DNA of 64,000 nucleotides from Hypomyces perniciosus (lineage: Eukaryota > Ascomycota > Sordariomycetes > Hypocreales > Hypocreaceae). This document shows, piece by piece, positions 19,192 through 43,048 of the stretch (position 1 is the stretch's first letter; each line of letters opens with the position of its first letter). The stretch is from positions 5,146,001 to 5,210,000 of the forward strand of contig SPDT01000007.1 of assembly GCA_008477525.1 (NCBI GenBank). Reading direction: 5' to 3'. The notes under the pieces were generated by a model, which worked only from the letters and a program-made list of their open reading frames with translations, did not search any database and was not told the DNA's origin. The translations under genes and the position numbers were made by a program.

Positions 19192-22100
19192 ATGGATGAC
19201 CTCTACGATGAGTCAGAATACCCATCATAATCTTTTACATCATCTGTTCTAACGAAGCATAATAGGTTCGGAAACTTCATTGGGGAGGAGGCTGAGTCCG
19301 AGGAAGCGTCCGAGGCTGGCGTTGAGGCGGGCGACTACGTCTACGATGATGAGCAGGATGAAGCGCCTGGTATGACTGGGCAGGAGCTCATGGAGCTTGA
19401 CGGTGTGTCTAATCGATGGCCCGAGATCGTGGTCACAAGCTGATTGAGAGCGCGCGAACAGATGGACCGTCCAATGCCGTCATTCTCCACGAGGACAAGC
19501 AGTATTACCCGACCGCCGAGCAAGTATACGGCGCCGATGTTGAAACACGCGTGGAAGAGGAAGATGCGCAGCCTCTGACACAACCCATCATCGCACCGGT
19601 TGAGCAGAAGAAGTTCAACATCGAAGAGGCCGACCTGCCTCCCGTATTTTTCGACCGCGAATTCATGACCGACTTGATGAACTTTCCAGACCAGATACGG
19701 AACATCGCACTAGCGGGCCATCTGCATCATGGAAAGACGGCATTCATGGACATGCTTGTTCTGGAGACACATGACATCACGGACAGGCTAGATCGGAGGG
19801 TCGGTAAGAATCGTGATGAGGCGTTGCGCTACACCGACGTCCACACGCTGGAGAGGGAGCGAGGCATATCTATCAAATCAGCGCCGATGAGTCTTGTACT
19901 GCAGAGCACCAAGGGCAAATCACACCTTTTCAACATTATTGATACCCCTGGCCATGTCAACTTTGTCGACGAGGTTGCAGCAGCCTTCCGGTTGGTTGAT
20001 GGTGTATGTCTGGTTGTGGACGTTGTTGAGGGTGTACAGGTGAACACAGAGCAGATCATCAAGCATGCTGTCCTAGAAGATATCCCTCTCACACTCATCA
20101 TAAACAAGATGGATCGATTGATTGTGGAGCTCAAGCTGCCCCCCAAAGACGCTTACTACAAGCTCAAGCATGTCATTGAGGAGGTCAACACCGTCATCGC
20201 GAATACGGTCCCTACCAAGGCGGCGTCGAAGCGAATAAGTCCTGAAAAAGGCAACGTCCTCTTCGCATGCACGGACATGGGTTGGTGCTTCACCTTGCCG
20301 TCTTTTGCGAAAATGTACACCGATACGTATGGGGATATCAACACCGAGGAGTTCGCCAAGAGGTTGTGGGGAGACGTCTACTACAACCCCAAGAAGCGCA
20401 ATTTCACACGAAAACCTGCCGAGGACCGATCTGCAAGATCCTTCGTGCATTTCGTGCTAGAACCCATCTACAAAATATTCACACATTCCATCAGTGACAG
20501 CCCAGAGCAGCTGAGACCGGTGCTGGCATCGCTCGGGATTGAGCTGAAGCCTTCACAATACAAGTCCGATGCGAAGGATATCCTGAAATTGGTGTGTGAG
20601 CAGTTCTTTGGTCCGTCGAGAGGCTTCGTCGATATGGTTGTCCAGCATATCCCCTCTCCAGCTAAGGGGGCAGAGCGGCTGTTGGACCGATACTATACTG
20701 GCCCCCTGGATACAAAGGTCGCCTCATCAATGAAGACATGCAATCAAGATGGTCCGTTGGTGGCCCATGTTACGAAACTATTTAGCACTTCAGATGCCAA
20801 GAGCTTCTACTCCTTTGGCCGTGTCTTGAGCGGTACTGTACGACCAGGCATTTCAGTACGGGTTCTCGGCGAGGGCTACTCCCTTGATGACGAAGAAGAC
20901 ATGGCAACAGCTTCGATCAGTGAGGTATTCATCGGAGAGACAAGATACAATATTCCCACAGATGGTATACCAGCCGGCAATTTGGTGCTGCTGGGTGGCG
21001 TTGACAACTCAATTGTCAAGTCAGCGACGATCGTGCCACCGAAACTGGATGATGATGAGGATGCATTCATCTTCAGGCCTGTAACACACTTCACTGAGTC
21101 TGTTCTCAAGGTAGCTGTTGAGCCCATTAACCCCTCTGAGCTGCCCAAGATGCTTGATGGACTGCGCAAAGTCCAAAAGTCGTACCCTCTTATCAATACG
21201 AAGGTGGAAGAGTCTGGTGAGCACATTATTCTGGGAACTGGAGAACTCTACATGGACTGCGTGCTGCACGATCTACGGCGCTTATATGCAGACATGGATA
21301 TCAAGGTGTCAGATCCAGTGACAAGATTCTGCGAGACTGTGGTGGAGACGTCGGCAACCAAGTGCTACGCAATCACACCAAACAAGAAGAACAAGATCAC
21401 CATGGTAGCAGAACAGCTGGAGAAGGGTATATCTACCGACATCGAAACGGGTGCTGTTAGGATCCGTGACCCGGTACGCAAGACGGCCAAGTTCTTTGAG
21501 GAGCGACATGGATGGGACAAGCTGGCGGCGAGAAGTATCTGGGCCTTTGGTCCTGATGAGATGGGGCCAAACATTCTGCAGGATGATACTCTTCCTACGG
21601 AGGTATGTTGAGGTTACGATTATCCAGCTTTTTGACTCGAGTTGCTAACAGTGACGGCTCTACACAGGTTGATAAGAAGCTCTTGGGCACTGTCAAGGAA
21701 TCGCTTCGACAAGGCTTCAGCTGGGCCACCCGTGAGGGACCGTTGTGCGAAGAACGTATGTCATCAGCTGAGCATTGAAATCCTAATGGGAGCTATCGTC
21801 ACTGACAATGATTCACAGCTATTCGCAACACCAAATTCAAGGTCACAGATGTCGTATTAGCCAATGAGGCCATATTCCGTGGTGGCGGCCAAATCATCCC
21901 CACATCCCGACGAGCATGCTACTCATCATTCCTCATGGCATCCCCACGTCTTATGGAGCCCGTCTACGCTGTCTCCGTCACAGGTCCCGAGGACTCCTAC
22001 ATGGAAGTCTACAACGTCTTAGCACGGCGCCGAGGTCACGTCCTATCAGACGGCCCCGTAGCCGGCACACCCCTGTACCGTGTCAACGGCCTCCTCCCAG

Positions 22101-22384
22101 TCGTCGACAGTTTCGGCTTCGAGACGGATCTGCGCATCAAGACCCAGGGCGGCTCCATGGTCAGCCTGGTATTCGACAGCTGGAGCATCGTGCCCGGCGA
22201 CCCCCTGGACCGCGAACAGGTCACCAGACCACTGCAGCCAGCCACCGCGCAAGCCACAGCGCGGGACTTTGTCCTCAAGACCAGGCGGCGCAAGGGCCTC
22301 AGCGAAGATGTGAGCGTGAAGACGTTCCTGGAGCCTGAGTTTTACCAAAGCCTGATGGAGAGCGGCATGCTTGGGGACGCTTAA
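19192..22384 (+). CDS. SNU114: U5 snRNP GTPase Snu114 (EFTUD2/Cwf10 homologue)
   Basis: Five exons: 19192-19211, 19266-19402, 19462-21602, 21668-21755, 21819-22384; 983 aa, family-typical. This EF-2-like GTPase of the U5 snRNP controls spliceosome activation and disassembly through Brr2/Prp8. The N-terminus reads [15 protein letters not shown] after splicing. The acidic N-terminal region is followed by the GTPase domain: GHLHHGKT at about 138-145, DTPGH at 213-217 and NKMD at 267-270. EF-2 domains II-V follow, ending [20 protein letters not shown]. The first coding exon is only 20 nt and its donor GTCAGA is non-consensus, but the frame, the CTAAC branch site and the conserved start all support it. 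The second intron (donor GTGTGT) is needed to join ELMELD to [12 protein letters not shown]. Confidence 0.95.
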
Positions 22385-42461: not shown

Positions 42462-42587
42462 AGCAATTTGGCGCAGTGGAAGCGCGCCGGGCTCATAACC
42501 CGGAGGGTAAGCACCCCTTAGGTCCCCAGTTCACAACGACACCAACTAACAATCACCCAGTCGCACGATCGAAACGTGCAATTGCTA
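42462..42587 (+). tRNA. Initiator tRNA-Met (CAT) interrupted by a variable-loop intron
   Basis: Exonic parts are 42462-42506 and 42561-42587, with anticodon CAT at 42494-42496. All arms close perfectly after removal of 42507-42560. The acceptor stem AGCAATT/AATTGCT pairs over 7 bp. The D-arm is GCGC-AGTGGAA-GCGC and the anticodon arm CCGGG-CTCATAA-CCCGG. The variable loop becomes AGGTC and the T-arm is GCACG-ATCGAAA-CGTGC, with discriminator A. Hallmarks of a eukaryotic initiator are visible: A1:U72, three G:C pairs closing the anticodon stem, and A54 and A60 in the T-loop instead of TTC. A T8 run two bases after the discriminator (42589-42596) fits a Pol III terminator. Box A is TGGCGCAGTGG at 42469-42479. 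The insert lies outside the canonical 37/38 intron site. Confidence 0.9.
42507..42560 (+). other. 54-nt spliceosomal-type intron inside the initiator tRNA gene
   Basis: The insert begins GTAAGC and ends CACCCAG. It carries ACTAAC at 42545-42550, with the branch adenosine 11 nt before the acceptor G. Length and motifs match spliceosomal introns of protein genes in this window (for example 53 and 54 nt in TAF2 and SNU114). GGGT (42505-42508) can pair with ACCC (42513-42516), placing the 5' junction in a small hairpin. The excision point AGG^TC regenerates a five-base variable loop. Whether spliceosome or endonuclease removes it is not known. Confidence 0.75.
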
Positions 42588-43048
42588 CTTTTTTTTCTCT
42601 TCTTTTTTTTTTCGCCTCCTCTTTGTGACCTTTTTGTTTTTTTTCTGACTCAGTTCTTATGCGTGAGTTTGAGGAACTGATGTTACTACTGGCGATGAGT
42701 ACTTCCCAGCAATACGAGACGTAGTCTATCAGCCTACTGTTTATCCTTTCCAGTATATTTCCACTATAAATCTAGTTAAGCTATCTGCCTCTTGAGTTTC
42801 TAAGTCTATTTGTATATCGTTATCGCAATCGATGGCTAAGTATAGGGAGGTTTAAATCAACACCAGAATCCTTCTCTACGTCCAGACATACTCCAAATCT
42901 CCACTTCTACTTGGTCAATGAGTAAGGGAGTGTATTTTCATTTTCATATCAAGCCCTGGAAAAGAAGGAAAGGGAAACTTTTCCATTGAAACATCCATAC
43001 TAGGTAGTGTGCATTCAGTTGACTCGATTTCACGTCTACCTAACGTTT
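42588..43048. other. Intergenic region downstream of the tRNA
   Basis: 461 bases between the tRNA gene and the stop of the oxygenase gene. The first 60 bases are T-rich. Nothing else is recognised. Confidence 0.5.
42589..42596 (+). terminator. Pol III T-run terminator of the tRNA gene
   Basis: Eight T residues directly follow the mature tRNA 3' end; a longer T-rich stretch continues to 42612. Confidence 0.75.

Follow-up and report, generated by a model that had tools for sequence, protein, structure and literature searches.

Spliceosomal-type inserts in the initiator tRNA-Met genes of Hypomyces perniciosus

Can the gene of an initiator transfer RNA (tRNA) harbour an intron of the kind that interrupts messenger RNAs (mRNAs)? 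By the usual division, tRNA introns are left to the tRNA splicing endonuclease and mRNA introns to the spliceosome. The question is raised by a stretch of 64,000 nucleotides (nt) of Hypomyces perniciosus DNA (hereafter the window: contig 4, 5146001-5210000, in a genome of 44.0 Mb and 23 contigs), where an initiator tRNA-Met gene at 42462-42587 of the window (+) is split in its variable loop by an insert bordered by splice-site-like signals. Paralogues elsewhere in the genome are split at the same place, and some of them at a second one. From these sequences we consider it highly probable that the inserts are U2-type spliceosomal introns and that their host genes are transcribed by RNA polymerase III (Pol III).

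Anatomy of the interrupted gene

The tRNA is the sole structured RNA of the window above the Rfam cut-offs, with 50.4 bits for a gathering cut-off of 29. Model RF00005 aligns end to end over 42462-42587 with no non-standard pair, the extra bases of the variable loop being taken up as one gap, and joining 42506 to 42561 yields a 72-nt tRNA-Met(CAT) in the ARAGORN fold. Three G:C pairs in the anticodon stem are the rule for initiator tRNA-Met. The spliced molecule has these three pairs together with a CAU anticodon, A1:U72 and A54; the last two are given as marks of eukaryotic initiator tRNA-Met in PMC8450103 (A1:U72) and PMC3978253 (A54). The features of the locus, all on the + strand, are as follows; the A and B boxes are placed by their position in the tRNA and by their consensus.

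42462..42506, +: exon 1 of the initiator tRNA-Met (positions 1-46: acceptor 5′ strand, D arm, anticodon arm with CAT, AGG of the variable loop); Rfam RF00005 alignment, identical in 5/5 copies
42469..42479, +: A box, part of the gene-internal promoter for Pol III, TGGCGCAGTGG
42507..42560, +: spliceosomal-type insert of 54 nt at 46/47 (GTAAGC...CTAAC...CAG), in 5/5 copies, with invariant signals and a variable interior
42507..42512, +: 5′ splice-site-like GTAAGC, invariant across the 5 copies
42529..42537, +: degenerate B-box-like GTTCACAAC within the insert; exact GTTCGAAAC at the same offset in 2/4 other copies
42546..42550, +: branch-site-like CTAAC, presumed branch A at 42549, invariant across the 5 copies
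42558..42560, +: 3′ splice-site-like CAG (TAG in two paralogues), terminal AG invariant
42561..42587, +: exon 2 (UC of the variable loop, T arm, acceptor 3′ strand, discriminator A); Rfam alignment, identical in 5/5 copies
42567..42575, +: native B box, GATCGAAAC
42589..42596, +: presumed Pol III terminator, a run of 8 T; a T run lies 3′ of the gene in 5/5 copies

An earlier note on this DNA had described an initiator tRNA-Met gene with a spliceosomal-type insert in its variable loop, and coordinates, sequence and Rfam alignment all agree with that description; the 54 nt of 42507-42560 also bear GTAAGC, CTAAC and CAG, as it had claimed. Its statement that the tRNA is perfect only when exactly this segment is removed was overstated, because a CAT cloverleaf is also obtained in ARAGORN with 137 of the 949 segments of 48-60 nt that were cut out in turn. 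The exact borders are therefore set by the splice signals together with the short variable loop.

How easily could such signals arise by chance? With a pattern that requires GTRWG at the start, YAG at the end and CTRAC ending 6-21 nt before the end, only 3 of 255,782 window segments (54-55 nt, both strands) match, a count that includes real introns and this very insert. Given about 20 admissible registers, we put the probability of a chance match for the 46/47 insert at roughly 2 in 10,000, which is our own estimate and not a computed value. A second insert, found at 26/27 in two paralogues, adds weight to the case; its site is fixed to two registers by the three paralogues that do not have it. 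CTAAC ends 9-11 nt before the insert end in all seven inserts; the starts are GTAAGC at 46/47 (5 copies) and GTATGT at 26/27 (2 copies), and the ends are YAG. Elsewhere in the window, intron-like segments of 45-90 nt start most often in a similar way (GTAAGT 6, GTAAGC 4 and GTATGT 4 of 26, the tRNA insert being counted among them); these are pattern matches and not proven introns. The same signals (GTATGT, GCTAAC, CAG) also delimit a 65-nt intron, at about 21603-21667, in the gene for Snu114. This gene occupies about 19192-22378 (+) and encodes the GTPase (EFTUD2) of the U5 small nuclear ribonucleoprotein, itself a spliceosomal protein; its best named matches are from Trichoderma and Cladobotryum, with 91-92% identity, as would suit a fungus of the order Hypocreales. 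Group I and group II introns are ruled out by size, the inserts measuring 54-55 nt and a catalytic core hundreds of nt.

Five copies and the search for an uninterrupted one

A DNA search of the genome returned seven aligned pieces that belong to five initiator loci:

L016: contig 4 (window copy), 46/47 insert of 54 nt
L017: contig 3, 2.82 Mb, 46/47 insert of 54 nt
L018: contig 23, 3.65 Mb, 46/47 insert of 55 nt
L019: contig 3, 0.24 Mb, 46/47 insert of 54 nt and 26/27 insert of 55 nt
L020: contig 5, 0.14 Mb, 46/47 insert of 55 nt and 26/27 insert of 55 nt

Thus the variable-loop insert is present in 5/5 loci and the 26/27 insert in 2/5. The latter, 55 nt long, follows G26, starts with GTATGTT, contains TGCTAAC and ends in TGCTAACTTGCTCCAG (CAG); at the corresponding place L016, L017 and L018 show the flanking exon parts joined exactly. 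All five copies agree in each of their 72 exon bases. The 46/47 inserts, when aligned, vary at 20 of 55 columns, none of which is among the 13 signal columns (the first six, CTAAC and the last two), a distribution with a hypergeometric probability of 0.001. Similarity extends into the upstream flanks of L016 and L019 and into both flanks of L017 and L018. Since L016 and L019 share upstream flanks, the 26/27 insert differs between related loci. A search for further sites with the core of the 26/27 insert (20-mer, up to 3 mismatches) gave the two known copies and two matches with 3 mismatches, which we read as ordinary sequence with neither tRNA nor intron layout, so that there is no sign of a repeated element.

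The earlier note had also asked whether intact copies of the gene exist. As far as our searches reach, there are none: neither the DNA search with the spliced gene nor two pattern searches of the genome found an uninterrupted initiator tRNA gene. The spliced query retrieved nothing but parts of exons from three of the interrupted copies, and this word-based search missed two known ones. The 19-mer of the anticodon and variable loop (up to 3 mismatches) gave the five known copies and four other matches, none of them a tRNA. The 18-mer of the D arm (up to 2 mismatches) gave the five known copies and eight others, none an intact initiator gene: six lie in Arg or Val tRNAs (L081-L086) and two in no tRNA (L080, L087). 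The genome was also searched with the Rfam tRNA model, 63 of 2316 candidates being scored, with 62 matches, and 48 loci around the matches were inspected. This model exceeds its cut-off in only 2/5 initiator copies, and the intron mode of ARAGORN misses two of the five and misnames the other three as tRNA-Arg(tcg), tRNA-Ser(tga) and tRNA-Val(aac). Because both programs largely miss or misname them, interrupted initiator genes may be overlooked elsewhere, and automatic annotations may carry false tRNA names for them.

Two observations on other contigs came from the same assembly. The first 6000 of the 15,331 bases of contig 2 (L106) consist of an AT-rich tandem unit of ∼2.9 kb (30% GC, neighbours 97% alike) in which a tRNA-Lys(ctt)-like gene recurs at the same interval; these 6 kb hold no open reading frame of 150 amino acids by table 4, and by its sequence the array looks like a mitochondrial plasmid concatemer. 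Contig 17 (145 kb) has mitochondrial-type tRNAs and 28% GC in its first 6 kb (L107, 1-6000), and the start of contig 8 (L108, 1-6000; contig of 4.2 Mb) matches contig 17 over 6 kb with 99.6% identity; this is either a recent mitochondrial insertion or an assembly join.

How the inserts may be removed

In the sequence of events that we propose, Pol III would start from the internal A and B boxes and stop at the T run. The spliceosome would then recognise GTAAGC or GTATGT at the 5′ border, CTAAC as branch site and YAG at the 3′ border, and would remove one intron at 46/47 in the five copies and another at 26/27 in two of them, the exons being joined into a normal 72-nt initiator tRNA. Because no uninterrupted copy was found, translation initiation would depend on the spliceosome.

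The best surviving alternative, unlikely as we think it is, is that the inserts are oddly placed tRNA introns of the kind removed by the tRNA splicing endonuclease (SEN). That enzyme would cut at a structure resembling a bulge-helix-bulge and tRNA ligase would seal the exons, a route found in archaea and some algae. The earlier note had left the choice between the spliceosome and an endonuclease acting at an unusual site. A SEN-type enzyme probably does act in this genome, as suggested by 11 nuclear tRNA genes with anticodon-loop introns of 14-31 nt (Val-TAC 2, Thr-AGT 4, Val-CAC, Ala-TGC, Ser-GCT, Arg-CCT 2), and in merolae many intron-bearing tRNA genes are tied to bulge-helix-bulge motifs, according to PMC3978253. 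However, none of these 11 introns has the GT...CTRAC...AG arrangement, and the signals are therefore not general to tRNA introns. The initiator inserts sit at 46/47 and 26/27, not at the canonical 37/38 of the anticodon loop, and a bulge-helix-bulge (two 3-nt bulges, 4-bp helix) does not fit any of the seven: 0-2 of 4 central-helix pairs form, in both of the registers that yield the same spliced product. The endonuclease would also leave the GT, CTAAC and YAG borders unexplained, as well as the layout shared with U6 small nuclear RNA (snRNA) genes that is described below. Spliceosomal removal, in contrast, would account for the borders, the branch site and the size, for the pattern of conservation, for both positions and for the likeness to U6, none of which follows from an endonuclease; the sequence thus favours the spliceosome.

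A second alternative, which we rate as more improbable still, is that the five loci are dead or minor and that an intact initiator gene has escaped our searches, either by falling into a gap of the assembly or through its divergence. An assembly in 23 contigs may have a gap, only a fraction of the tRNA candidates was scored, and the spliced query had shown just three of the five copies. But the two pattern searches, which recovered all five, reveal no intact gene, and decaying copies would not keep the same 72 nt of exon at five scattered loci with differing inserts. Finally, removal by some other nuclease and ligase route, or toleration of the inserts in an oversized variable loop, is barely credible: ARAGORN does accept many loop lengths, but the signals are conserved and the interior is not, and to our knowledge no initiator tRNA has a 59-nt variable arm or a 55-nt insert at 26/27.

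Several points nevertheless weigh against the spliceosomal interpretation. The cloverleaf structure alone leaves the insert borders unfixed, as the trial excisions made clear. The five copies are not five independent tests, because paralogues may exchange sequence, and L018 and L020 have 46/47 inserts that agree at all but one column. Exons of 45 and 27 nt, or of 25, 20 and 27 nt where there are two inserts, are very short, and Pol III precursors lack the 7-methylguanosine (m7G) cap. Exact-pattern searches for relatives in viral and genome contig collections gave no insert-bearing match; the uninterrupted core was matched nine times (5 and 4), by what we read from the flanks as bacterial-type tRNAs. 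The gene anatomy, the signals, the copy survey and the conservation pattern are direct observations; from them we infer transcription and expression, splicing with its presumed branch point, dependence on splicing, and a promoter role.

Internal promoters, U6 and other systems

U6 snRNA genes are Pol III genes, and introns are known in those of fungi. Both U6 genes that we found (L021, contig 3:1700161; L022, contig 4:5851670; 47 of 2649 candidates scored) are interrupted by a GT-AG insert directly before the ACAGAGA box, ACAGAGAAGATTAGC. The inserts, of 60 and 58 nt, start with GTAAGT, contain CTGAC or CTAAC, end in CAG or TAG and each hold a B box, GTTCGAACC. Such an intronic B box was reportedly described in Schizosaccharomyces U6 by Frendewey et al. 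in 1990 (cited in PMC10484740). In two further kinds of Pol III gene no such interruption was seen: the single SRP (signal recognition particle) RNA found aligns with no intron-sized insert, and of the 45 matches for 5S RNA (47 of 1834 candidates scored) the 43 above the cut-off all measure 119-120 nt and are therefore intact. Searches of the genome for RNase P RNA, and with an elongator tRNA-Met query based on yeast, gave no match and are uninformative.

Some of the tRNA inserts also resemble those of U6 in holding a B box. Counting from 0, the B box of the spliced tRNA gene starts at index 51 and the native one of the two-insert copies at index 160-161; the 26/27 insert carries GTTCGAATCC at index 51, which is the A-to-B spacing of the spliced gene. 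Within the 46/47 insert the B box is an exact GTTCGAAAC in L017 and L020, has one mismatch in L018 and is degenerate in L016 and L019. The window copy (L016) thus has no good intronic B box, which argues against a strict requirement for one. Exact GTTCGANNC occurs in both U6 introns, both 26/27 inserts and 2/5 of the 46/47 inserts, for a background of 0.22% of 55-base window segments and 1 of the 26 intron-like ones. In a scan of 237 kb of partly overlapping sequence, the full layout was matched by both U6 introns, 4 of the 7 tRNA inserts and one minus-strand segment of the window with a weaker B-box match. The introns may thus double as promoter parts, the B-box-like motifs probably keeping a B box near the A box where the native one is displaced 54-110 nt downstream.

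Descent of the tRNA inserts from U6 introns is not claimed, as the shuffle tests, uncorrected, are suggestive at best. Shuffling spared the 5′ site, the B box, the branch and the 3′ site, and 8 of the 14 possible U6-tRNA pairs were tested. In five of these pairs the observed score was equalled by 17 to 34 shuffles in 1000, in the remaining three by 68, 241 and 398 of 1000. The likeness between the 46/47 and 26/27 inserts does not exceed that of shuffled sequence (375 and 859 of 1000, two pairs tested). Nor is there support for the 46/47 insert being a duplicate of the gene's own 3′ half: over the five copies, 74 to 176 in 1000 shuffles that leave the signals in place score as high. We would only tentatively entertain a broader proposal, which may well prove wrong: that all initiator tRNA is made by spliceosomal splicing of Pol III precursors, and that the introns are removable B-box promoter modules sharing their layout, and perhaps descent, with those of U6. 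Spliceosomal introns would in that event have spread between Pol III genes; and as U6 would both need splicing and splice the initiator tRNA, translation initiation would be coupled to spliceosome capacity.

If the spliceosomal interpretation is true, an essential tRNA with such introns in all its copies breaks the division between endonuclease and spliceosome, translation initiation depends on splicing, and the locus offers a case for the entry and persistence of introns in Pol III genes.

Maturation by the spliceosome is known to us from no tRNA, and in the open-licence literature, judged mostly by title and abstract, no description of a spliceosomal intron in any tRNA was found. The closest likeness is with the U6 introns of Schizosaccharomyces and other fungi, where a Pol III gene likewise has a short GT-AG intron with a branch site and, as in some of the present inserts, an intronic B box; here, however, the host is a tRNA that already possesses a B box, there are two intron positions, and every copy found is interrupted. 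Canonical nuclear tRNA introns (37/38, SEN) share with the present ones a nuclear tRNA gene as host, but differ in position, length, borders and the bulge-helix-bulge, which the initiator inserts do not have. The U3 small nucleolar RNA of fungi also harbours mRNA-type introns in a small structured RNA, though not in a tRNA, and PMC5832005 names U3 and U6 as the only small structured RNAs known in 2017 to be often interrupted by introns. The non-canonical tRNA introns of archaea and unicellular algae lie outside the anticodon loop, the variable loop included, with more than one per gene in archaea (PMC8450103 and PMC3978253), but they are cut at the bulge-helix-bulge motifs absent from the initiator inserts. 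Spliceosomal introns in the Pol III gene U6 and variable-loop introns in archaeal tRNAs were thus already known; what would be new here is spliceosomal-type introns in a tRNA.
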